A DNA stretch of 64,000 nucleotides, from the NCBI GenBank assembly GCA_032622095.1, contig CP136061.1:132562087-132626086 (forward strand), written 5' to 3'. The first letter of the stretch is position 1; every line of letters begins with the position of its first letter. The notes below the pieces were generated by a model, which made no database searches, had not been told where the DNA came from, and saw only the letters and a list, made by a program, of their open reading frames with translations. Made by a program: the position numbers and the translations under genes. This stretch comes from Siphonodentalium dalli. Lineage: Eukaryota > Mollusca > Scaphopoda > Gadilida > Siphonodentaliidae. This document shows, piece by piece, positions 11,530 to 31,849 of this stretch.

Positions 11530-13265
11530 AAAATATATATGAGATGTGCCAAGTTCTTCCATGGTTATATATATTTTGGAAATGGTAGGATACTTCTAAC
11601 ATAATGATATTACCAAGTCGAGAACTAATAGACAAACATTTAACCCTTCCCCAAATTTCACAAATATCCACATATATGTCACGGAATTTTAGTGCATATT
11701 CTGTATCTTATAATATTTAAGGCCATTATTATGGTTACGCAAAATCTACGATGGAGACCAAAATGGCGGCACAAATAAAAACAAATGTTCCGATAAAACG
11801 ACCAGCTTATGAATTTCAAGATAATCTGCATGTTTTGTAACTGTTCTTAGTGCATATATGTATCTGCTGCTAATGTGGCCGTATCACAAGAAATTATTGG
11901 CATTAAGATGGTAAATGCTCATTAATGTTTCGAAAAAGATACATTGTGAAATGTCAAATTGCCCAAATAGGACCGAGTTTCAACCTGACATCCATGCATT
12001 CGGCGGTATAGAAGTCAGCGTTCTGCTGCACGATGTAATTGTTGACAAGAATTGAAGCCACAATGCCGATTAAATATATATTAATAGTTAGTTATTCAAC
12101 CCTCAATAGCTAAATCGGGTGTCCCGTGGTAATAGACCCGCATGGCCACTTAATTTTCGAACCCCCAATTCACGTTATGTAAAATATATGCCATATTATA
12201 TACCATTCGAAAGAGTAAGCTCCAAAATATTGTATTTTAAACTTATTCGATGTAATAAACTGTGAACATGTTGTTTTTATTGAGAAACTGGTGTCTATTC
12301 TGTGATCAAGTTTATGCACAAAGTGGTAGGGGAATAACTCTATATATTTAGATATAGAGTTATTCCACTTCCATGAAAAACATCTATAGTTAGAATTCTG
12401 TTGCATTCTGGGAGTCAAATGGGGGGATGATTTTATTATTTCAGCTATTTTCTATTACTCTATGGCCACCTTACGAGACACAGACATTCCAAATGGTGAT
12501 AAATTATAGTATTTTAATCATATTTTTGGGCATAGATTTATTAAAACCGTATATTTAATCACTTTGAGCTTTGATGGGTAGGTTCCTCGACTCGAATCTA
12601 TTTTTTTTTTTTACCCCCGAAGCCAAACAAATAGTAATTTAAGAGCATCTGATCGGATTGAGTACCTTTAATCCTCATTACTTTTGTATCACATTTGGTT
12701 GATAGTGCATGCACTACAATGAGTGCCCTTTGTTATCCTTTAAGCTTATACATTAGTAGATGCTGATAATATATAAATATGATTCTCATGTCGCTCCGGT
12801 TACAAATTAAATTTGGGTTTTTGAATTACATTTCCGATTTTTGGGTGAAATTAAGTTCGGCCAAAAGTTTGGCTAAATTAATTTGCCATTTTCTAAAAAA
12901 AAAAAATGGTCAATTTGGCCTATGCCAGCGTGAAGGCTGCTTATTTGCTTAAGCAGTTCATTTATGTATTTGTTTAGCCGTGCATGCTTTATTTTGATAT
13001 TTGTCTTGGAAGAAACTTCATTCATAACAGAAGACTTTGATAATCCTTCAAATTTGTTGCAAAATTGCCTTCAATTTCAATTGGTCTTACCTGAAGGAAC
13101 ACTTTAGATTCCGAATATTAAAGGAATTTCGGGAAACTACACACCTCAGAAAGATGACACATTGTCATTGACTGAGATTTGTTTTGTTTGTTTTGTATTT
13201 TGTTTCCTCCCGTATATTTATCCATCCTGTTATTTTCTGTTGATAATTAGTTATAAATAGCATAA
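11530..13265. other. No gene seen; AT-rich intergenic DNA
   Basis: Contains the family B fragment at 12555-12674 and a GAATAACTCTATATATTTAG palindrome near 12331-12367. Otherwise there is only non-coding composition on both strands. Confidence 0.5.
12555..12674. mobile_element. Family B element, right-end fragment
   Basis: GAGCTTTGATGGGTAGGTTC, then ACCCCCGAAGCC, then GATCGGATTGAGTACCTTTAA. It matches the right third of the 9789-10276 copy. Confidence 0.7.
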
Positions 13266-13706
13266 ATCCTGCAAATAGTGTGTCTATGATTTGCAGAATG
13301 AGGTCCATAGAGGGTGAATTTAGTTAATCTATCCAACAAGGCGGACTAGCGTCACCAAATTCACCCTCTGTGGACCTCATTCTGTTTAGGCCTCAACTGC
13401 TATGGGAGATCAAGGATCATGCAGATTGAAGTTCCTTTGTTGAAGTAGGCGATGTCAGCCAATTATTCACCTCGATTATTCATTTTATCTCCTGCAAATT
13501 AGGGGATATAGTAACTTCCCAGAAGGGAAGACGTATATATAACTAAAACAATGTTAATTTTAGACTATAGATAGTTCCAGAAGATGATGCGTAACCAGAA
13601 TGAGGTTCTCAGAGGGTAAACGTGGTGATGCTAGCCCACTGTGTGGGATTATATCACTGAATTCACCCTAAGTGGGAACTCATTCTGCAAATGACACACA
13701 TAATGT
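13266..13706. mobile_element. Family A MITE, long form
   Basis: Hairpin 1 at about 13293-13386 and hairpin 2 at about 13598-13695 flank a roughly 210-bp spacer (CTGCTATGGGA... then ATTAGGGGATATAG). The spacer is also present in the 18.77-19.19 kb copy. The second hairpin is more decayed. Confidence 0.75.
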
Positions 13707-13880
13707 TTGCTATTCTCAACGACCCGGCCATTTCCGTTTCGCTGAGGAAATAACCTCTTCCATAAATAGAAACCATATTCGCGCAATGCTACATTATACA
13801 GCCCTGATAATAAGGCGATGAACTTGACTCGTTGACTCATAGATGTGAATGAAGCAGAATCTAGCTATTCACTGTATGCC
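13707..13880. repeat. Dispersed repeat, copy at 42040-42195
   Basis: Shares GGAAATAACCTCTTCCATAA, GAAACCATATTCGCG and TGACTCGTTGACTCATAG-like sequence. Not coding. Confidence 0.65.
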
Positions 13881-16765: not shown

Positions 16766-17000
16766 CATTGACAAGTCAGCTTACTGAATAGAATATCAAC
16801 TGGAAAAAAACTAGTGCATCTTGGGACATTACAAAAATAGAGCTTGAGCTTGGACATATTCAAATGTGTTTACAATGTTGAAAGACACAGTATAAATGTT
16901 TCTCACTATACATTTTACAATTATGAAAATAGAATTATTCTGATTTATACGAGACAACCACCCCCCCCCCCCCCTACCCCTTGGAATCTGGATTCCGGCT

Positions 17001-17400
17001 TTAACCCATTACCCAACAAACCGGCCAAAAACGGCCAAATAAAGCTGCAACAGCCTAAATTATCTTGGGTCTGTCTCAATAAAACCATACAAATATGGAT
17101 ATCATTGGAACCGGCTCATTGACCACATTGTGATGATTACAGTTATGCCCTGTGCCAATGCATTCTCTTATATATGCGAGTCGACCATAGGTCGCCTCGC
17201 ATATATAAGAGAATGCATTGGCCTAAAAAAAAAAAAATTAACACTTTTTACCATTTTTTCTTACATTCTTTAACAATTTTATAATTTTTAATGTGTTAAG
17301 CCAATGCATTCTCTTATATATATGCGAGGCGACCTATGGTCGACTCGCATATATAAGAGAATGCATTGGCACAGGGCCGTTCTGTTGGGTAAAGGGTTAA
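17001..17400. mobile_element. TTAA-bounded MITE, family C, with two internal 70-bp palindromes
   Basis: Ends TTAACCCATTACCCAACA and TGTTGGGTAAAGGGTTAA. Inside are two near-perfect hairpins built on GCCAATGCATTCTCTTATAT with a GTCGACC core, separated by a poly-A spacer. The copy at 31435-31832 is the same element in opposite orientation. Confidence 0.85.
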
Positions 17401-17884
17401 AAGAGATGTGATGCTGTTTAAGATTCTAACAATAAGGAATGCCAGTATATGAATTATTTTTGGAGAAAAAGAATATTGTATGCTTTTAATTTAAACCAAT
17501 AACTGGGATATTTTTCTTGTATTTTTCAAATATTTAGTGAATTCACAGAGCGCGTTGGTTATTTGCCTGATCGTCATCCAATAGTTTCGGAGATAATATA
17601 GGCCCAAGTTGGTTAATGTATGGTGTACGGGAACGAATTACGTCACTTAAACGATCTTTATAGTGAGCTTATATTAATATCTATGCATTTACTCGATTTG
17701 GAAAAGCCAAGAGTGATGGATATGAAAAAATATGACTGAATTTGAATTTTGCTGTAAACAGGATCCAGTTATGCAGCGGAAATCCGGCGTACGATACAGA
17801 TGGAATCAGGCATAGAGTTCGAAAACCCCCGGAATCCAGACTACGAAAAAAAGGGTGATAGCCTCTTATATGAGTGACATGAAT

Positions 17885-17967
17885 TTACACTGTGGTGTCG
17901 GGTTGAGACATGGTTGTGGTTTCTTCCTCCTCTTCATCTTGTCCCTCCACTGACTCAGATGATTTAT
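17885..17967 (-). CDS. Exon 4: acidic C-terminal tail and stop
   Basis: Acceptor is CTTCCTTCCAG/ATAAATC (exon starts 17967). Phase 1 entry gives 26 further residues rich in Glu (a run of five), Thr and Ser, ending in TAA at 17887-17885. It lies 10.5 kb from exon 3. Assignment rests on the strong polypyrimidine acceptor, the correct phase, an open frame to a stop and acidic composition continuous with exon 3. No AATAAA is obvious just downstream. An ATTAAA on the minus strand near 17484-17489 is a weak polyadenylation candidate. Confidence 0.75.
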
Positions 17968-20900
17968 CTGGAAGGAAGGTATTGACATTTCAATAATCAA
18001 AGTGATTATTAACACTCCTTATCAGTAGATAATAAAGTCATACTAAGTAGTAACCCTTTCATGACCGGAGCTTCGCTGGTGCAGAATTAAATATCCTGTG
18101 CCAGTGCATTCTTTTATATATGCGAGTTTCCCCATAGGGTCCCTCGAATATATGAGATAATGCACTGGCTTACAATGTCAAGTAAATAATGCATTCTCTT
18201 ATATATGTTCGGGGATCCGTATAGGAGACTCGCATATATAATAGAATGCATTGGCACAGGGTTTTTGTAAAATTTTGGGAAGCTCCAGTCATGAAAGGGT
18301 TAAATAGAATGTATCTCTTCCTAGTAAGTTTTACATATAGGCCCTGGAGTATAAAATAATAAATACGAATTGAGGACACCTGTTCGAAAAAGTTTCTATC
18401 TATTAGTATAAATTTTCATTAGAATTTCTTATAACATTCTCGAGGCTAGTGTTTAGGGCAGAAATCACGAAAACATTCAGAGGGTACCTTGAGCGAACCA
18501 AGGGGGAGAACTCTATCTTGTTAGCGCTAGGACCCTCAATCTGGGCAAATTTCATTTCAACTGGTAGATTTCACTGCGAATTACTCTCAGCTGCTTCAAA
18601 AATAAAACTACTTTATTATTCCTTTAAAGACAAATAATATACCCAAATCCTCGATTTTATTCACAAAAAAAAGCTACTCTTGAAATCAGATTTTATAAAA
18701 AAAAATGTTGCAATTGTGTCCGGAAGAAATACACTATCTTTTATTGGGCATTTGAATTTCACCAAACAATTCAAGATAGTGTGTCTGTCATTTGCAGAAT
18801 GAGGTCCCCAGAGGGTGAATTTAGTGATGATATCCCACACAGCAGGCTAAGGTCACCAAATTCACCCTCTGTGGACCTCATTCTGCTTAGGCCGCAACTG
18901 CTATGGGAAATCTAGGATGAGATTGAAGTTGGTGTTGTTCACCAATTAGTCATCACGATTATGCAATTTATCTTCTGCAGATTAGGGGATATAGAAACTG
19001 AACAGAAGGGGGAAGTAACTAAAACAATGTTAATATGATACTAGATACTTCCCTGAAGATGTGGCCTGAGCAGAATAAGGTCCACAGAGAAGGAATTTAG
19101 TGACTCTAACCCGCTGTGTAGAGTAGCGTCACCAGACTCACCCTCTGGCGACCTCATGCTGCAAATGTCAGACACACTATTTCAAGGCTTGATACAATCG
19201 ATGGAAAAAATATGATACATAAAAAATAAGCCAGAAAGAACTACCCGATTCTGAGAAGACCCATAACCTACTAAGTTATATTTCTTTCATTCGTCCCGAA
19301 AGTTGAAGAGCTAACAAGCCTTGAAATAGTGTGTCTGTCATTTGCAGAATGAGGTCCACAGAGGGCGAATTTAGTGATACTTCCCCACTAGAGGCTTATA
19401 ACGGGGAATATGTAGAAAATATAGGAACATCCATTCATTGTGGAACTCATAAAATGAATGAGCAGTTTTAGCATTACGGGCAGGCACCGGGCGCGGTTTT
19501 AGTATAGGTAATAGTGTAAATCAAAGGTGAGAACTCGGTTTGAATAGCCGGAGAATTAGGAGAAAGTGTTATGAGGTATGGAAGCTGGTGTCAGCAATTA
19601 GGAATAAACCTGGCATGTTCCAATGTTTTGGCAACTGTTGCCCAAACCAAATCCCTGGGGATAACCCAGATCTAAATATAAGCTTTCCAAAAAATATTCT
19701 AAGTTCTAACATCGGAAATTCATAGTTATTACAGCCTATATGGAATTGTTCATTTCATTGATATAAGGTCATGTGTGTATGAAAGCAATCAGAACCCCAA
19801 TCTATGTTCCTGCTTACCATGATATAAGGTCATGTGTGTATGAAAGCAATCTAAACCCCAATATATGTTCCTGCTTACCATGATATAAGGTAATGTGTGT
19901 GAAAGCAATATAAACCCCAATCTATGTTCCTGCTTACCATGATATAAGGTCACGTGTGTATGAAAGCAATCTAAACCCCAATATATGTTCCTGATTACCA
20001 TGATATAAGGTCATGTGTGTGTGAAAGCAATCTAAACCCCAATCTATGTTCCTGCTTACCATGATATAAGGTCATGTGTGTGTGAAAGCAATCTAAACCC
20101 CAATATATTATGTTCCTGCTTACCATGATATAAGGTAATGTGTGTGAAAGCAATATAAACCCCAATCTATGTTCCTGCTTACCATGATATAAGGTCACGT
20201 GTGTATGAAAGCAATCTAAACCCCAATATATGTTCCTGCTTACCATGATATAAGGTCACGTGTGTATGAAAGCAATCTAAACCCCAATCTATGTGTTTGC
20301 TTACCATGATATAAGGTCATGTGTGTGTGAAAGCAATCTAAACCCCAATATATTATGTTCCTGCTTACCATGATATAAGGTCATGTGTGTATGAACGCAA
20401 TCTAAACCCCAATATATTATGTTCCTGCTTACCATGATATAAGGTCATGTGTGTGAAAGCAATCTAAACCCCAATATATGTTCCTGCTTACCATGATATA
20501 AGGTCATGTGTGTATGAAAGCAATCTAAACCCCAATATATGTTCCTACTTACCATGATATAAGGTCATGTGTGTGAAAGCAATCTAAACCCCAATATATG
20601 TTCCTGCTTACCATGATATAAGGTAATGTGTATGAAAGCAATCTAAACCCCAATCTATGTTCCTGCTTACCATGATATAAGGTCATGTGTGTGTATGAAA
20701 GCAATATAAACCCCAATATATTATGTTCCTGCTTACCATGATATAAGGTCATGTGTGTGAAAGCAATCTAAACCCCAATATATGTTCCTGCTTACCATGA
20801 TATAAGGTAATGTGTATGAAAGCAATCTAAACCCCAATCTATGTTCCTGCTTACCATGATATAAGGTCATGTGTGTGAAAGCAATCTAAACCCCAATCTA

Positions 20901-23900
20901 TGTTCCTGCTTACCATGATATAAGGTAATGTGTATGAAAGCAATCTAAACCCCAATCTATGTTCCTGCTTACCATGATATAAGGTCATGTGTGTGTATGA
21001 AAGCAATCTAAACCCCAATATATTATGTTCCTGCTTACCATGATATAAGGTCATGTGTGTGAAAGCAATCTAAACCCCAATATATGTTCCTGCTTACCAT
21101 GATATAAGGTAATGCGTATGAAAGCAATCTAAACCCCAATCTATGTTCCTGCTTACCATGATATAAGGTCATGTGTGTGAAAGCAATCTAAACCCCAATA
21201 TATGTTCCTGCTTACCATGATATAAGGTAATGTGTATGAAAGCAATCTAAACCCCAATCTATGTTCCTGCTTACCATGATATAAGGTCATGTGTGTGAAA
21301 GCAATCTAAACCCCAATATATGTTCCTGCTTACCATGATATAAGGTAATGTGTATGAAAGCAATCTAAACCCCAATCTATGTTCCTGCTTACCATGATAT
21401 AAGGTCATGTGTGTGAAAGCAATCTAAACCCCAATATATGTTCCTGCTTACCATGATATAAGGTAATGTGTATGAAAGCAATCTAAACCCCAATCTATGT
21501 TCCTGCTTACCATGATATAAGGTCATGTGTGTGTATGAAAGCAATATAAACCCCAATATATTATGTTCCTGCTTACCATGATATAAGGTCATGTGTGTGA
21601 AAGCAATCTAAACCCCAATATATGTTCCTGCTTACCATGATATAAGGTAATGTGTATGAAAGCAATCTAAACCCCAATATATTATGTTCCTGCTTACCAT
21701 GATATAAGGTCATGTGTGTGTATGAAAGCAATATAAACCCCAATATATTATGTTCCTGCTTACCATGATATAAGGTCATGTGTGTGTGAAAGCAATCTAA
21801 ACCCCAATCTATTATGTTCCTGCTTACCATGATATAAGGTCATGTGTGTGTATGAAAGCAATATAAACCCCAATATATTATGTTCCTGCTTACCATGATA
21901 TAAGGTCATGTGTGTGTGAAAGCAATCTAAACCCCAATCTATTATGTTCCTGCTTACCATGATATAAGGTCATGTGTGTGAAAGCAATCTAAACCCCAAT
22001 CTATTATGTTCCTGCTTACCATGTTATAAGGTCATGTGTGTGAAAGCAATCTAAACCCCAATCTATTATGTTCCTGCTTACCATGATATAAGGTCATGTG
22101 TGTGTGAAAGCAATCTAAACCCCAATATATTATGTTCCTGCTTACCATGATATAAGGTCATGTGTGTGTGAAAGCAATCTAAACCCCAATATATGTTCCT
22201 GCTTACCATGATATAAGGTCATGTGTGTGAAAGCAATATAAACCCCAATCTATTATGTTCCTGCTTACCATGATATAAGGTCATGTGTGTGAAAGCAATC
22301 TAAACCCCAATATATGTTCCTGCTTACCATGATATAAGGTAATGTGTATGAAAGCAATCTAAACCCCAATCTATGTTCCTGCTTACCATGATATAAGGTC
22401 ATGTGTGTGTATGAAAGCAATCTAAACCCCAATCTATTATGTTCCTGCTTACCATGTTATAAGGTCATGTGTGTGAAAGCAATCTAAACCCCAATCTATG
22501 TTCCTGCTTACCATGATATAAGGTCATGTGTGTGTATGAAAGCAATCTAAACCCCAATATATTATGTTCCTGCTTACCATGATATAAGGTCATGTGTGTG
22601 TGAAAGCAATCTAAACCCCAATCTATTATGTTCCTGCTTACCATGATATAAGGTCATGTGTGTGAAAGCAATCTAAACCCCAATCTATTATGTTCCTGCT
22701 TACCATGTTATAAGGTCATATGTGTGAAAGCAATCTAAACCCCAATCTATTATGTTCCTGCTTACCATGTTATAAGGTCATGTGTGTGAAAGCAATATAA
22801 ACCCCAATCTATGTTCCTGCTTACCATGATATAAGGTCATGTGTGTGTGAAAGCAATCTAAACCCCAATCTATTATGTTCCTGCTTACCATGATATAAGG
22901 TCATGTGTGTGTGAAAGCAATCTAAACCCCAATATATTATGTTCCTGCTTACCATGATATAAGGTCATGTGTGTGAAAGCAATCTAAACCCCAATATATG
23001 TTCCTGCTTACCATGATATAAGGTCATGTGTGTGAAAGCAATATAAACCCCAATCTATTATGTTACTGCTTACCATGATATAAGGTCATGTGTGTGTGAA
23101 AGCAATCTAAACCCCAATCTATGTTCCTGCTTACCATGATATAAGGTCATGTGTGTGAAAGCAATATAAACCCCAATATATGTTCCTGCTTACCATGATA
23201 TAAGGTCATGTGTGTGAAAGCAATCTAAACCCCAATATATTATGTTCCTGCTTACCATGATATAAGGTCATGTGTGTGAAAGCAATCTAAACCCCAATAT
23301 ATGTTCCTGCTTACCATGATATAAGGTCACGTGTGTATGAAAGCAATCTAAACCCCAATATATTATGTTCCTGCTTACCATGATATAAGGTCATGTGTGT
23401 GAAAGCAATCTAAACCCCAATCTATGTTCCTGCTTACCATGATATAAGGTCATGTGTGTGAAAGCAATATAAACCCCAATCTATGTTCCTGCTTACCATG
23501 ATATAAGGTCATGTGTGTGAAAGCAATCTAAACCCCAATCTATGTTCCTGCTTACCATGATATAAGGTCATGTGTGTGAAAGCAATCTAAACCCCAATCT
23601 ATGTTCCTGCTTACCATGTTATAAGGTCATGTGTGTGAAAGCAATCTAAACCCCAATCTATGTTCCTGCTTACCATGTTATAAGGTCATGTGTGTGAAAG
23701 CAATCTAAACCCCAATATATTATGTTCCTGCTTACCATGATATAAGGTCATGTGTGTATGAAAGCAATATAAACCCCAATCTATTATGTTCCTGCTTACC
23801 ATGATATAAGGTCATGTGTGTGAAAGCAATCTAAACCCCAATCTATGTTCCTGCTTACCATGATATAAGGTCATGTGTATGAAAGCAATCTAAACCCCAA

Positions 23901-26900
23901 TCTATTATGTTCCTGCTTACCATGTTATAAGGTCATGTGTGTGAAAGCAATCTAAACCCCAATATATGTTCCTGCTTACCATGATATAAGGTCATGTGTA
24001 TGAAAGCAATCTAAACCCCAATCTATTATGTTCCTGCTTACCATGATATAAGGTCATGTGTGTGAAAGCAATCTAAACCCCAATATATGTTCCTGCTTAC
24101 CATGATATAAGGTCATGTGTGTGAAAGCAATCTAAACCCCAATCTATGTTCCTGCTTACCATGATATAAGGTCATGTGTGTGTGAAAGCAATCTAAACCC
24201 CAATATATGTTCCTGCTTACCATGATATAAGGTCATGTGTGTGTGAAAGCAATCTAAACCCCAATATATTATGTTCCTGCTTACCATGATATAAGGTCAT
24301 GTGTGTGTGAAAGCAATCTAAACCCCAATCTATTATGTTCCTGCTTACCATGATATAAGGTCATGTGTGTGTATGAAAGCAATATAAACCCCAATATATT
24401 ATGTTCCTGCTTACCATGATATAAGGTCATGTGTGTGTGAAAGCAATCTAAACCCCAATCTATTATGTTACTGCTTACCATGATATAAGGTCATGTGTGT
24501 GAAAGCAATCTAAACCCCAATCTATTATGTTCCTGCTTACCATGTTATAAGGTCATGTGTGTGAAAGCAATCTAAACCCCAATCTATTATGTTCCTGCTT
24601 ACCATGATATAAGGTCATGTGTGTGTGAAAGCAATCTAAACCCCAATATATTATGTTCCTGCTTACCATGATATAAGGTCATGTGTGTGTGAAAGCAATC
24701 TAAACCCCAATATATGTTCCTGCTTACCATGATATAAGGTCATGTGTGTGAAAGCAATATAAACCCCAATCTATTATGTTCCTGCTTACCATGATATAAG
24801 GTCATGTGTGTGAAAGCAATCTAAACCCCAATATATGTTCCTGCTTACCATGATATAAGGTAATGTGTATGAAAGCAATCTAAACCCCAATCTATGTTCC
24901 TGCTTACCATGATATAAGGTCATGTGTGTGTATGAAAGCAATCTAAACCCCAATCTATTATGTTCCTGCTTACCATGATATAAGGTCATGTGTGTGAAAG
25001 CAATCTAAACCCCAATCTATGTTCCTGCTTACCATGATATAAGGTCATGTGTGTGTATGAAAGCAATCTAAACCCCAATATATTATGTTCCTGCTTACCA
25101 TGATATAAGGTCATGTGTGTGAAAGCAATCTAAACCCCAATCTATTATGTTCCTGCTTACCATGTTATAAGGTCATGTGTGTGAAAGCAATCTAAACCCC
25201 AATCAATTATGTTCCTGCTTACCATGATATAAGGTCATGTGTGTGTGAAAGCAATCTAAACCCCAATCTATGTTCCTGCTTACCATGATATAAGGTCATG
25301 TGTGTGAGTGAAAGCAATCTAAACCCCAATCTATTATGTTCCTGCTTACCATGATATAAGGTCATGTGTGTGAAAGCAATCTAAACCCCAATCTATTATG
25401 TTCCTGCTTACCATGTTATAAGGTCATGTGTGTGAAAGCAATCTAAACCCCAATCTATTATGTTCCTGCTTACCATGATATAAGGTCATGTGTGTGTGAA
25501 AGCAATCTAAACCCCAATCTATGTTCCTGCTTACCATGATATAAGGTCATGTGTGTGTGTGAAAGCAATCTAAACCCCAATCTATTATGTTCCTGCTTAC
25601 CATGATATAAGGTCATGTGTGTGAAAGCAATCTAAACCCCAATCTATTATGTTCCTGCTTACCATGTTATAAGGTCATGTGTGTGAAAGCAATCTAAACC
25701 CCAATCTATTATGTTCCTGCTTACCATGATATAAGGTGATGTGTGTGTGAAAGCAATCTAAACCCCAATCTATGTTCCTGCTTACCATGATATAAGGTCA
25801 TGTGTGTGAGTGAAAGCAATCTAAACCCCAATCTATTATGTTCCTGCTTACCATGATATAAGGTCATGTGTGTGAAAGCAATCTAAACCCCAATCTATTA
25901 TGTTCCTGCTTACCATGTTATAAGGTCATGTGTGTGAAAGCAATCTAAACCCCAATCTATTATGTTCCTGCTTACCATGATATAAGGTCATGTGTGTGTG
26001 AAAGCAATCTAAACCCCAATCTATTATGTTCCTGCTTACCATGATATAAGGTCATGTGTGTGTGAAAGCAATCTAAACCCCAATCTATGTTCCTGCTTAC
26101 CATGATATAAGGTCACATGTGTATGAAAGCAATCTAAACCCCAATATATTATGTTCCTGCTTACCATGATATAATGTCATGTCTGTGAAAGCAATCTAAA
26201 CCCCAATCTATGTTCCTGCTTACCATCATATAAGGTCATGTGTGTGAAAGCAATATAAACCCCAATATATTATGTTCCTGCTTACCATGATATAAGGTCA
26301 TGTGTGTGAAAGCAATCTAAACCCCAATATATGTTCCTGCTTACCATGATATAAGGTCACGTGTGTATGAAAGCAATCTAAACCCCAATATATTATGTTC
26401 CTGCTTACCATGATATAAGGTCATGTGTGTGAAAGCAATCTAAACCCCAATCTATGTTCCTGCTTACCATGATATAAGGTCATGTGTGTGAAAGCAATAT
26501 AAACCCCAATCTATGTTCCTGCTTACAATGATATAAGGTGATGTGTGTGTGAAAGCAATCTAAACCTCAATATATGTTCCTGCTTACCATGATATAAGGT
26601 CATGTGTGTGTATGAAAGCAATCTAAACCCCAATATATTATGTTCCTGCTTACCATGATATAAGGTCATGTGTGTGTGAAAGCAATCTAAACCCCAATAT
26701 ATTATGTTCCTGCTTACCATGTTATAAGGTCATGTGTGTGAAAGCAATATAAACCCCAATCTATGTTCCTGCTTACCATGATATAAGGTCATGTGTGTGT
26801 GAAAGCAATCTAAACCCCAATCTATTATGTTCCTGCTTACCATGATATAAGGTCATGTGTGTGTGAAAGCAATCTAAACCCCAATATATGTTCCTGCTTA

Positions 26901-29900
26901 CCATGATATAAGGTCACGTGTGTATGAAAGCAATCTAAACCCCAATATATTATGTTCCTGCTTACCATGATATAATGTCATGTCTGTGAAAGCAATCTAA
27001 ACCCCAATCTATGTTCCTGCTTACCATGATATAAGGTCATGTGTGTGAAAGCAATATAAACCCCAATATATTATGTTCCTGCTTACCATGATATAAGGTC
27101 ATGTGTGTGAAAGCAATCTAAACCCCAATATATGTTCCTGCTTACCATGATATAAGGTCACGTGTGTATGAAAGCAATCTAAACCCCAATATATTATGTT
27201 CCTGCTTACCATGATATAAGGTCATGTGTGTGAAAGCAATCTAAACCCCAATCTATGTTCCTGCTTACCATGATATAAGGTCATGTGTGTGAAAGCAATA
27301 TAAACCCCAATCTATGTTCCTGCTTACAATGATATAAGGTCATGTGTGTGAAAGCAATCTAAACCCCAATCTATGTTCCTGCTTACCATGATATAAGGTC
27401 ATGTGTGTGAAAGCAATATAAACCCCAATCTATGTTCCTGCTTACCATGATATAAGGTCATGTGTGTGAAAGCAATCTAAACCCCAATCTATGTTCCTGC
27501 TTACCATGTTATAAGGTCATGTGTGTGAAAGCAATCTAAACCCCAATCTATGTTCCTGCTTACCATGTTATAAGGTCATGTGTGTGAAAGCAATCTAAAC
27601 CCCAATATATTATGTTCCTGCTTACCATGATATAAGGTCATGTGTGTATGAAAGCAATATAAACCCCAATCTATTATGTTCCTGCTTACCATGATATAAG
27701 GTCATGTGTGTGAAAGCAATCTAAACCCCAATCTATGTTCCTGCTCACCATGATATAAGGTCATGTGTATGAAAGCAATCTAAACCCCAATCTATTATGT
27801 TCCTGCTTACCATGTTATAAGGTCATGTGTGTGAAAGCAATCTAAACCCCAATATATGTTCCTGCTTACCATGATATAAGGTCATGTGTATGAAAGCAAT
27901 CTAAACCCCAATCTATTATGTTCCTGCTTACCATGATATAAGGTCATGTGTGTGAAAGCAATCTAAACCCCAATATATGTTCCTGCTTACCATGATATAA
28001 GGTCATGTGTGTGAAAGCAATCTAAACCCCAATCTATGTTCCTGCTTACCATGATATAAGGTCATGTGTGTATGAAAGCAATCTAAACCCCAATCTATGT
28101 TCCTGCTTACCATGATATAAGGTCATGTGTGTGTGAAAGCAATCTAAACCCCAATCTATGTTCCTGCTTACCATGATATAAGGTCATGTGTGTGTGAAAG
28201 CAATCTAAACCCCAATATATTATGTTCCTGCTTACCATGTTATAAGGTCATGTGTGTATGAAAGCAATCTAAACCCCAATCTATTATGTTCCTGCTTACC
28301 ATGTTATAAGGTCATGTGTGTGTGAAAGCAATCTAAACCCCAATCTATTATGTTCCTGCTTACCATGTTATAAGGTCATGTGTGTATGAAAGCAATCTAA
28401 ACCCCAATCTATTATGTTCCTGCTTACCATGATATAAGGTCATGTGTGTGTGAAAGCAATCTAAACCCCAATCTATTATGTTCCTGCTTACCATGTTTGC
28501 ATGGCTCATCCTCGGTCTCCTCAAACACGAATGGTCCGTAATAAAACTCATCTTTGCTCAGCCGATCATCTCCTGCAATTCATAGTTGTTTGAATTGAAA
28601 ATTGAGTCATATAAATTCGAATGTGCATTATGATTAACTATGGTGGTTTAACTACACCACAACATTTTAATTTTCAAATTGAATTAAAAAAATTGTAAGC
28701 TCAGAGCTTAAGCAGAAATATTATACTATCTCTGCATTAAGTGTTACCATATCATCAGGTTATTATACAAATTACCCAGTTGTAGCTAGGATTTCAAATT
28801 TCTAAATACATCCACCCACTTTTTGGCTTACCAAATTTCCAAGTCAGGTCAATTGCATTTTCAGTACAACCCTTGGATATTCCAATCTTTCATCAGATAC
28901 TTATGCTAAAAAAAATCGAAAGCTGGTGGTGTTGTGTGTCTAAAATTGATAAAATGTATGACAACCTATTTATCACTGAATTTTAAACTTTAAAATAGCA
29001 TATGTTCTCGGGGAAAAATTCTAACTTTGATTTGTATATGAAAGTTTATTGCATATATGGTGATGGTGGTTATTGTGCCTATAAAACTCACCGTCAACAT
29101 CAGCCTCCTTATAAGCTTCTGTTACATCTTCGATTTTCTCACCCAAAGTACCAAGGAATTCATCAATGGAGATGAATTCGTCCTCGTCAATGTCGTAGAA
29201 ATCAAAACCCTGAGGTAATGGAGTCAGATGTCCAACTTCGTTCTGAAATTGGAGATGCTTGTTATGTACAGACCTCAAAATATGGTGCTGGTCATTTGCA
29301 GAATGAGGTCACCAGAGGGTGAATTTAGAATGTATATATATAAATAAGATCAGATTTAATGCAAAATAAACCCAATGGGCAGTTGCACATATAATTAATA
29401 CAATATATCAACATAAAGAATAATTTAACATGAGTAATCACGTACTATATGCATATACGTTCTCGTGAATTTACTTTAAAAAAATCTCACGTGTATTTGC
29501 TAACTTTTGTTAGATATATGTATATTGTCTCGAATGGTGAAACAGTAGTTATCCCTTAGGAAATTTTCAGATAATAAGTTCAACAAACAACCGGAACTTA
29601 TTATCTGAACATTTCCAACCATTTATAGATAGGATTATTTTTGCCTATCGTCTGTTCATATATCACTGAATATCCCTCCATATGTACAATATATCAATCC
29701 AATATATTCTTTTACAACTCAATGATGGGAGAATCCATTAGTAAAGCAAGGGTTAAGCTGCGCGGAAAGCTTTGTTGTGGTAACACTTACATTCATAGCG
29801 TCCCTCCTCTTGCGCCCACAGAGCTTCTTGCACGGGAATTTGCACACCAGTTTCCCGATACCTCCAGTGATAACCCTTTCACATACTCTGGGACAAACCG

Positions 29901-30051
29901 TCTTGCAAACTGGTTTCAAAACTCTGCCGACTACTCGCAAAATCTTCCGTCCTCTAATTCTTATCCTGATCCGTGGCCAGCCTTCTGTGTCTTCGGGAAA
30001 CAAGATCGCAACCAAAAGTGTGCAAATAATAACGGAAGCCCCGAGTTTCAT
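17885..30051 (-). CDS. Secreted cationic cysteine-rich peptide precursor with EF-hand propiece (mytimycin-like architecture), four coding exons
   Basis: CDS is 30051-29791, 29242-29092, 28572-28492 and 17967-17885: 261+151+81+83 = 576 nt, 191 codons plus stop, with phases 0, 1 and 1 matching at every junction. Residues 1-23/24 form a signal peptide (hydrophobic core at 7-18). Residues 24-79 are basic (16 Arg/Lys, one Glu): an alternating Arg-Ile run at 27-33, then six Cys (49, 53, 57, 70, 74, 78) spaced x3, x3, x12, x3, x3. Gly79 then R80-K-R-R83 is a furin-like site that could also leave a C-terminal amide. Residues 104-115 and 135-146 are EF-hand loops with Asp at positions 1, 3 and 5 and Glu at 12. 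The tail (147-191) is acidic. Signal, cationic Cys-rich peptide, then an acidic EF-hand extension is the known layout of mussel mytimycin, but the Cys pattern differs, so the mature peptide is a different type. Antimicrobial or cytolytic activity is inferred. Cys162 is unpaired. Confidence 0.85.
18050..18303. mobile_element. Family C-like MITE (CATGAC variant), in intron 3
   Basis: Ends GTAACCCTTTCATGACCGGA and TCCAGTCATGAAAGGGTTAA. Two hairpins of the CATATATAAGAGAATGCA type are inside. The first T of the left TTAA is mutated. Confidence 0.75.
18766..19186. mobile_element. Family A MITE, long form, within intron 3
   Basis: Begins CAAGATAGTGTGTCTGTCATT and ends AGACACACTATTTCAAGGCTT. Hairpins lie at about 18796-18893 and 19072-19165, with the same spacer as the 13.3 kb copy. 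Confidence 0.8.
19316..19385. mobile_element. Family A MITE, left-end fragment
   Basis: AGCCTTGAAATAGTGTGTCTG followed by the first hairpin arm, then unrelated sequence. A still shorter fragment (GCAGAATGAGGTCACCAGAG) is at 29298-29325, next to exon 2 of the peptide gene. Confidence 0.7.
19760..28492. repeat. Large minisatellite array, about 140 units of 59-65 bp, filling most of intron 3 of the peptide gene
   Basis: Plus-strand unit: a GATATAAGGTCATGTGTG segment, then AAAGCAATCTAAACCCC, then AATCTATGTTCCTGC and TTACCAT. Variation is mostly in the TG dinucleotide run (2-4 repeats), an ATT insertion before ATGTTCC, CTA/ATA in the middle, GTCATG/GTAATG/GTCACG, and CATGATAT/CATGTTAT. The array starts without transition at 19760 and ends exactly at the exon 3 donor. 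On the minus strand each unit reads CATG/GTAAGCAGGAAC, identical to the real donor. Blocks of units recur as larger duplications. Confidence 0.97.
28491..28499 (-). promoter_or_regulatory. Functional 5' splice site of exon 3 (template of the array motif)
   Basis: ATG/GTAAGCAGG on the minus strand. The same string occurs in nearly every unit of the array. In units of the CATGTTAT variant, the three upstream bases (AAC) also match the true donor. Confidence 0.7.
28492..28572 (-). CDS. Exon 3: second EF-hand completed, acidic linker; donor abuts the minisatellite
   Basis: Acceptor is ATTGCAG/GAGATG (exon starts 28572); donor is ACATG/GTAAGC (exon ends 28492), phase 1 at both ends. It completes the loop at residues 135-146 (Asp 1, 3 and 5; Leu 8; Ser 9; Glu 12) and adds an acidic stretch containing Cys162. 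The donor is the first of the roughly 140 near-identical copies in the downstream array. The 3' end of this exon (CATG) is itself part of the repeat unit. Confidence 0.85.
29092..29242 (-). CDS. Exon 2: first EF-hand loop and first part of the second
   Basis: Acceptor is TTTCAG/AACG (exon starts 29242); donor is GACG/GTGAGT (exon ends 29092), phase 1. It encodes 50 residues plus one base. The loop at residues 104-115 has Asp at 1, 3 and 5, Ile at 8, Ser at 9 and Glu at 12, a canonical calcium-binding loop. Sixteen acidic residues against two Lys make it a plausible neutraliser of the basic peptide. Intron 1 is 548 bp and intron 2 is 519 bp. Confidence 0.85.
29566..29609. repeat. 16-bp perfect hairpin in intron 1 of the peptide gene
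   Basis: Arms TTCAGATAATAAGTTC and its reverse complement enclose a 12-nt loop. A related, less perfect hairpin lies at 30228-30295 upstream of the start codon, and a single arm lies near 16545-16560. It appears to be a small dispersed foldback sequence. Confidence 0.75.
29791..30051 (-). CDS. Exon 1 of the peptide precursor: signal peptide and complete mature peptide
   Basis: Codes for residues 1-87. The chosen ATG (30051-30049) is followed directly by a signal-peptide core. In-frame ATGs upstream at 30120 and 30078 would bury that signal behind a polar leader. A good acceptor-like sequence (pyrimidine-rich, ending CAG at 30060) lies 8 nt upstream of the ATG, so a 5' UTR intron is possible and would exclude the upstream ATGs. 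The donor is AAT/GTAAGT at 29791/29790, phase 0. The whole mature peptide and its RKRR processing site sit in this exon, and the propiece is in exons 2-4. Confidence 0.85.
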
Positions 30052-30300
30052 CTTGCGTTCTGAAAGCGAAAGATACATGTATGTTATTAATCCCTTTGTA
30101 TACGAAATGTATTCTCCCATTTAGTCATAAAAAGTATTCAAAGGAAGCGTCTATAATTATTCTGGAGGAGAAAAATAAGAAGAAGACGATACAATACAAG
30201 TGCTGAAGAAGTCCTATTCATTGGTGGGAAATGTTCAGATAATAAAGGTCAACATAATGGTCGTTTGTTGAACTTATATTTTATCTGAGCATTCCCCAAG
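30052..30300 (-). promoter_or_regulatory. 5' flank of the peptide gene with a possible 5' UTR splice acceptor
   Basis: On the minus strand the sequence just before the ATG reads CTTTCGCTTTCAG/AACGCAAG, an acceptor-like site. Further upstream, 30176-30245 resembles 35846-35925, where a TATATA-like string is present. This suggests that the core promoter and first exon lie around 30130-30250. The transcription start cannot be placed from sequence alone. Confidence 0.4.
30228..30295. repeat. Imperfect hairpin upstream of the peptide gene, same family as 29566-29609
   Basis: Contains GTTCAGATAATAAAGGTCAA and, in inverted form, TTGAACTTATATTTTATCTG. The two copies bracket exon 1. Confidence 0.55.
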
Positions 30301-31300: not shown

Positions 31301-31434
31301 ATCACTTCTTCGGGGGGGGGACGCTTTTAATAATCACTTTAAAATGTTAACAATATTAGTGTTGCCAGCAGACGGATATCGGATCTCAAGCTATGAAGGT
31401 CAGACTCGTGTTAGTGCTGTCAGGGCCTAACATT

Positions 31435-31832
31435 TTAACCCTTTACTCAACAGAACGGCCCTGTGCCAATGCATTCTCTTATATATGCGAGTCGACCATA
31501 GGTCGCCTCGCATATATAAGAGAATGCATTGGCTTAACACATTAAAAATTATAAAATTGTTAAAGAATGTAAGAAAAAATTGTAAAAAGTGTTAAAAAAA
31601 GATTTGTTTTAGGCCAATGCATTCTCTTATATATGCGAGGCGACCTATGGTCGACTCGCATATAAGAGAATGCATTGGCACAGAGCATAACTGTAACTAT
31701 CACAATGTGGTCAAGGAGCCGGTTCCAATGATATCCATATTTGTATGGTTCTATTGAGACAGACCGAAGATATTTTAGGCTGTTGAAGCTTTATTTGGCC
31801 GGTTTTGGCCGGTTTGTTGGGTAAAGGGTTAA
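31435..31832. mobile_element. TTAA-bounded MITE, family C, inverted relative to 17001-17400
   Basis: 398 bp, TTAACCCTTTACTCAACAG to TGTTGGGTAAAGGGTTAA, with the same two palindromes and spacer in reverse complement. High similarity over the full length suggests recent mobility. Confidence 0.85.
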
Positions 31833-31849
31833 ACAGGTTTACGCTGGTA

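Follow-up and report, generated by a model that had tools for sequence, protein, structure and literature searches.

An array of 142 candidate splice donors directly behind the third coding exon of a predicted peptide gene in the scaphopod Siphonodentalium dalli

What becomes of an exon whose splice donor is followed, in a row, by 141 further donors of the same kind? The question is raised by a 64,000-nt stretch of the Siphonodentalium dalli genome (contig CP136061.1, positions 132,562,087 to 132,626,086; below, the window). Its minus strand carries a predicted gene for a cationic six-cysteine peptide, and the third coding exon of this gene is followed directly by a minisatellite of 142 units, each with a candidate donor. 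The 142-copy array probably arose by a duplication that included the exon-intron junction and grew by slippage and unequal exchange; mainly the first donor is predicted to be in use, with the others acting as occasional decoys.

Tandem Repeats Finder delimits the array to window positions 19759-28495 (142.0 copies, 91% matches). It occupies 83% of the 10,524-nt intron. When cut at the donor, it falls into 142 head-to-tail units of 59-66 nt, with donor-to-donor spacings of 59 nt (54 cases), 61 nt (18), 62 nt (27), 64 nt (28) and 66 nt (14). The unit has the pattern CATG/GTAAGCAGGAAC...TTATAT on the sense strand. The GT dinucleotide at positions +1/+2 is retained in 142 of 142 units, the donor from -3 to +8 reads ATG/GTAAGCAG in 136, and the 16-mer CATG/GTAAGCAGGAAC, that is CATGGTAAGCAGGAAC, is exact in 133. 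Thus the first-pass annotation, which had described some 140 donor copies in a row past the real one, is borne out in the count and in the presence of a GT in every unit; the exact 16-mer that it had placed in all units is absent from some, and the edges that it had set at 19760 and 28499 move to 19759 and 28495.

The last four nucleotides of the exon are included in the array, and the predicted real donor, 28492/28491, falls in unit 1, so the real donor is the first member of the array, as had been proposed. Unit 1 is identical to seven others (units 28, 41, 68, 92, 96, 107 and 109), and the real donor thus belongs to the homogenised array. In all, 50 unit types occur in irregular order and with repeated blocks, the longest being units 58-65, which recur as units 99-106; such blocks are expected from unequal exchange. 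Divergence is highest in the last 16 units, whose mean distance to the nearest other unit is 0.88 columns versus 0.00-0.29 elsewhere. Both edges are sharp: in the 70 nt before the array and the 70 nt after it, alignment to the unit does not exceed that of shuffled sequences (498 of 500 shuffles score as high on each side), which rules out a hidden extra unit or exonic repeat homology at the edges. All 63 DNA matches to the array in the host genome lie within the array itself (one candidate region was scored), and a dispersed satellite was rejected on this ground.

Growth from the exon-intron junction, called evident in the earlier annotation, is likely. Such growth fits the position of the array's start, 4 nt within the exon, the lack of a match to the unit in the flanks, the identity of unit 1 with seven other units, and the absence of an array at the corresponding donor of two paralogs. 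As the initial event we infer a duplication across the junction whose left breakpoint fell within the exon, 4 nt from its end; every copy would thereby have received the exonic part of the donor. The array would then have been enlarged by slippage and unequal exchange.

The array is known from one assembly, and its length might be inflated by misassembly; likewise, the third coding exon might not end at 28492. An error of either kind seems most unlikely. The 50 unit types in irregular order, with distinct blocks, are unlike the simple stutter of one unit, and the third coding exon is conserved together with its donor in two paralogs, although the last exon has no paralog match.

The gene model is summarised in Table 1. 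In our numbering the first coding exon is exon 2, allowing for a 5' untranslated exon, and the second and third coding exons are exons 3 and 4; the earlier annotation called the latter exon 3. The four coding exons give an open frame of 191 amino acids, whose predicted product consists of a signal peptide, a cationic six-cysteine peptide, an RKRR site, an EF-hand-like region and an acidic tail. In this predicted model the exon end at 28492, the next coding exon at 17967 and the intron of about 10.5 kb all agree with what had been annotated before. The donor position of the third coding exon is backed by a homologous exon ending at a GT donor in two paralogs. For the last exon, placed at 17967 by splice signals and frame, the encoded 28 residues match only the window itself among 58 genome matches. 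The Pfam EF-hand pair is matched at E 1e-05 (26.2 bits, under the curated cut-off of 30), and calmodulins in the Protein Data Bank (PDB) match the protein at E 4.4e-05. No protein relative outside this genome was found at E 0.001 or better among 63 candidates, and the best tblastn match in 210 kb of flanks (E 0.045) contains a stop. From the precursor layout we infer a putative antimicrobial role.

Table 1. Features of the donor array and its predicted host gene (window coordinates)
Feature	Position	Strand	Basis
Donor minisatellite, 142 units of 59-66 nt, GT donor in each	19759..28495	-	Tandem Repeats Finder, splitting at donor
Unit 1 (64 nt), holds predicted real donor 28492/28491	28432..28495	-	Donor scan, unit comparison
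Last unit (142), one of the most divergent, sharply bounded by unique intron	19759..19821	-	Unit comparison
First coding exon (start codon 30050): predicted signal peptide, cationic six-Cys peptide, RKRR site	29791..30059	-	Open frame, splice signals; 28 exon-2-like hits at other genomic sites (E up to 1)
Second coding exon, start of EF-hand-like region	29092..29242	-	Open frame; 23 exon-3-like genome matches
Third coding exon, 81 nt, ends CATG at 28492	28492..28572	-	Open frame; homologous exon with GT donor in paralogs L030 and L031
Intron, 10,524 nt	17968..28491	-	Predicted exon ends
Three AATAAA hexamers (18745, 18661, 18617), in intron downstream of array	18612..18745	-	Motif scan; candidate polyadenylation signals
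Last coding exon: acidic tail, stop codon	17885..17967	-	Splice acceptor and frame; no paralog match

Two other repeated elements were observed near the gene. A palindromic element with CATATATAAGAGAATGCATTGGC occurs at window positions 17000-17402 and 31433-31833, on opposite strands and with 94% identity, and is also present in an intron of the relative L030 (about 2250-2500). The other element, with GCAGAATGAGGTC close to either end, is present as diverged copies in inverted orientation, one at 18782-19193, inside the intron that holds the array, and one at 13262-13708.

The candidate donors of the array are strong. Scored with a human matrix, 139 sense sites in the 8.7-kb array reach at least the score of the real donor. 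Outside the array, the remaining 55.3 kb has 17 such sites in sense and 12 in antisense orientation, which makes the sense-strand density about 16 per kb in the array and 0.3 per kb elsewhere in the window. No antisense site of this strength occurs within the array. Predicted pairing with U1 equals that of the real donor, at -8.0 kcal/mol, for 136 of the 142 units and is clearly weaker for three (-4.3, -4.3 and -5.1 kcal/mol).

U1 is known to protect introns from early polyadenylation. One possibility is that the array is a regulator: many bound U1 small nuclear ribonucleoproteins (snRNPs) would delay splicing or shield the intron from early polyadenylation, and array length would tune the output. 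The density of donor-strength sites would suit this role, three AATAAA hexamers do lie in the intron past the array, and in human ABCA7 expression falls and the next exon is skipped more often as the variable number tandem repeat (VNTR) lengthens (PMC5954066). We nevertheless consider a regulator unlikely. The 10 donor columns hold 6 rare changes, and the other 43 non-polymorphic columns hold 17 (Fisher p 0.42), so that donor-specific conservation is rejected and selection on the extra donors is not shown. Arrays following exon 3 in paralogs on contig C9, considered below, have lost the GT in 11 of 57 downstream copies. In the ABCA7 study, as far as its available text goes, the authors did not credit extra donors for the expression change, and retention of a unit was independent of array length (PMC5954066).

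For the effect on splicing, the earlier annotation had listed absorption of U1 by decoys, shifts of choice among copies, delayed splicing, and neutrality with the first donor winning. The last is a prediction and is the one best supported from outside: when exon-defined minigenes offered two identical donors at a distance of 52 nt, splicing took the upstream donor exclusively (PMC9225289), which leads us to predict that donor 1 wins. The 81-nt exon, with 519 nt of intron upstream and 10.5 kb downstream, is taken as a predicted case of exon definition. Exon definition, with an exon of 81 nt and donors spaced by 59-66 nt, would favour donor 1, and the downstream donors would be occasional decoys.

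The consequences of decoy use were followed by joining each donor in silico to 17967. Donor 1 yields the 191-residue protein, donor 2 yields 185 residues with a stop codon spanning the junction, and from donor 3 to donor 142 the result is always one 186-residue frame, in which the stop precedes the last junction by 60 nt or more. Whichever of the 141 downstream donors is taken, the acidic tail DKSSESVEGQDEEEEETTTMSQPDTTV is replaced by GKQEHNRLGFRLLSHTHDLIS, or by GKQEHNRLGFRLLSHTHDLIS plus W, followed by the stop. The choice of decoy therefore hardly matters to the protein. Transcripts spliced at donors 3-142 are likely targets of nonsense-mediated decay because of the position of the stop. 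Leakage to donor 2 would thus give the 185-residue protein and leakage to donors 3-142 probable decay substrates, and a long array would at most reduce output, as reported for ABCA7.

The uniform tail could also be deliberate, with donor 2 or a later one used in some tissue to exchange the acidic propeptide tail for a basic, histidine-rich one. The near identity of the tails from all 141 downstream donors agrees with this, as does the use of two downstream repeat units as donors in human IFI6 (PMC4526556, available text). However, the stop lies at least 60 nt before the last junction for 140 of the 141 donors, which predicts decay, and no second donor is present at the homologous exon in the two paralogs where that exon could be read. 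A deliberate alternative C-terminus is thus very unlikely.

It is most likely that the extra donors are passengers. Several observations weigh against exclusive use of the first donor or against neutrality of the rest. One downstream copy (GTAAGT) pairs better with U1 than the real donor does (-10.7 kcal/mol). Predicted accessibility is not in favour of donor 1, as 51 of the 141 downstream donors are more open; a hidden RNA structure exposing donor 1 alone was looked for in this prediction and not seen. When common variants are counted as well, the donor stretch is among the least variable parts of the unit, only 5 of 66 ten-column windows varying as little, and the extra donors may be under weak constraint. 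Rare variants do not form a clean gradient along the array: units 1-14 contain 1 and units 127-142 contain 10, yet the stretches 29-42 and 43-56 have 7 apiece. Finally, the available text of the minigene study states that human alternative-donor events overall favour the downstream site in about 60% of cases and that intron-defined events favour the downstream donor (PMC9225289).

Relatives of the gene were sought in the host genome (2.2 Gb, nine contigs), with matches accepted up to E 1. The 58 exon matches comprise 4 of the window gene, 28 exon-2-like, 23 exon-3-like and 3 weak EF-hand matches. Donors were searched for a 24-base copy at most 1.1 kb downstream, in comparison with 200 shuffles per donor; two loci were analysed with nine exon bases and without shuffles. 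The search covered the exon-2 donors of 12 of the 28 paralog matches and of the window, and the exon-3 donors of 22 paralog loci and of the window gene; the other 16 exon-2-like matches, the 3 weak EF-hand matches and a second exon-3-like match inside L037 (C9:77442141) were left out. Exon-4 donors were located in two paralogs only, L030 and L031.

None of the 13 exon-2 donors has a downstream copy. Downstream copies belonging to other donor-containing repeats are present at 11 of the 23 exon-3 donors, namely L030-L037 on contig C9, L041 on C6, and L049 and L050 on C3. Since the paralogs are related, these are not 11 events. The exon-3 donor of L038 has one borderline copy (16 of 24 bases, reached by 11 of 200 shuffles), and that of L047 a 16/24 match reached by 5 of 200 shuffles. 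No copy was found for the exon-3 donors of L039, L040, L042-L046, L048, L051 and the window gene. At exon 4 the window donor is copied, whereas those of L030 (best match 15/24, reached by 18 of 200 shuffles) and L031 are not.

The repeat directly behind exon 3 in L030-L037 has a unit of mostly about 78 nt with ACA/GTAAGC, and differs from the window unit; the two units are located at different exons. At L036 at least 18 downstream copies were counted in 1.5 kb, and the repeat continues to the end of the stretch. Over nine loci, 46 of the 57 downstream copies of the C9 repeat keep the GT. L037 (C9:77441930-77443500) contains another exon-3-like copy, which has a stop codon, about 300 nt past the relative's exon 3. 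L049 and L050 (first 146 and 140 bases) have a 73-nt tandem duplication consisting of the end of exon 3, its donor and the first intron bases, with 65 of 71 and 58 of 65 bases identical; on this layout, the C3 pair would represent the two-copy stage of a donor array.

Donor repeats of this family thus occur at two or more exons and are built of three or more different units. We take them to have had two or three separate origins, two being possible because the C6 copy may share the origin of the C9 repeat. Among the examples of this recurring pattern in the family, the longest array observed is that of the window.

A background control tempers this recurrence. Among 144 donor-like sites (same matrix, both strands, in the window minus the array and in 210 kb of flanks), 31 are accompanied, within 1.1 kb, by a copy that agrees in at least 18 of 24 bases. 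Twenty of the 31 lie in one repeat with a period of about 0.9 kb (L023-L024), and 3 have their best copy within 120 nt. The L023-L024 repeat is situated at C1:132666087-132686086 of the host, about 104-124 kb beyond the window's start. At chaperonin exon ends (PF00118; five short loci with guessed donor positions) no donor copy was found except for a 16/24 match in a TA run. Donor-adjacent repeats are common in this genome, and the enrichment in the family is therefore suggestive only. A further reading is that junctions of this family repeatedly become donor arrays (exon 4 here, exon 3 on C9 and C6, and separately exon 3 in the C3 pair), whose length would be a heritable, fast-changing splicing brake on host-defence peptides; we regard this as quite improbable.

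The first-pass annotation knew of no described case of such an array, and in this respect it does not hold, as ABCA7 and IFI6 are precedents. The minisatellite of human IFI6 (6-16, G1P3), attributed to Turri et al. 1995 (NAR 23:1854), reportedly provides multiple splice donors. Its unit is reportedly 12 nt long and present in about 26 copies. The likeness to the window lies in a minisatellite that supplies multiple donors, and the window layout is compatible with downstream use; IFI6 differs in the much shorter unit and fewer copies, and in being an interferon-induced human gene. The text available for IFI6 describes two downstream repeat units used as donors and three mRNA species (PMC4526556).

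ABCA7 is similar in layout. According to the available text, the VNTR of its intron 18 adjoins the exon, its first GT is the canonical donor of exon 18, and it has a 25-bp unit present in about 12-427 copies (298-10,678 bp); canonical splicing and retention of one unit, by use of the second donor, both occur (PMC5954066). The window array likewise directly flanks its exon, unit 1 holds the canonical donor of the predicted exon model, and the downstream units carry donors. The differences are the unit (25 bp there, 59-66 nt here), the evidence (measurements in RNA and across people there, the sequence of one assembly here), and the next exon, which is skipped more with array length in ABCA7 and is the predicted last coding exon here. 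Furthermore, the window unit takes in the last four exon bases, and relatives of the window gene carry other donor repeats.

The precursor layout resembles that of the mussel mytimycins, in which a Cys-containing peptide is followed by a basic cleavage site and an anionic C-terminal extension with an EF-hand (PMC8004829, available text). This likeness is judged by description, not by sequence, and the window peptide differs in having six cysteines. The accessible text makes no mention of donor arrays in mytimycins (PMC8004829), and in the literature, as far as its text was available, no array of this kind was found described for an invertebrate gene or an antimicrobial gene.

Thus the ABCA7 arrangement, a repeat that has captured the donor of an exon, also exists outside its best-known vertebrate cases, here at 142 copies, and related donor duplications with 2, several and at least 18 copies recur at another exon in the family. 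This range of copy numbers is a natural series for asking how many equal donors are tolerated, whether the first always wins, and whether length affects output. The donor-capturing array itself is a known arrangement, represented by ABCA7 and IFI6; its recurrence within one gene family is the fresh element.

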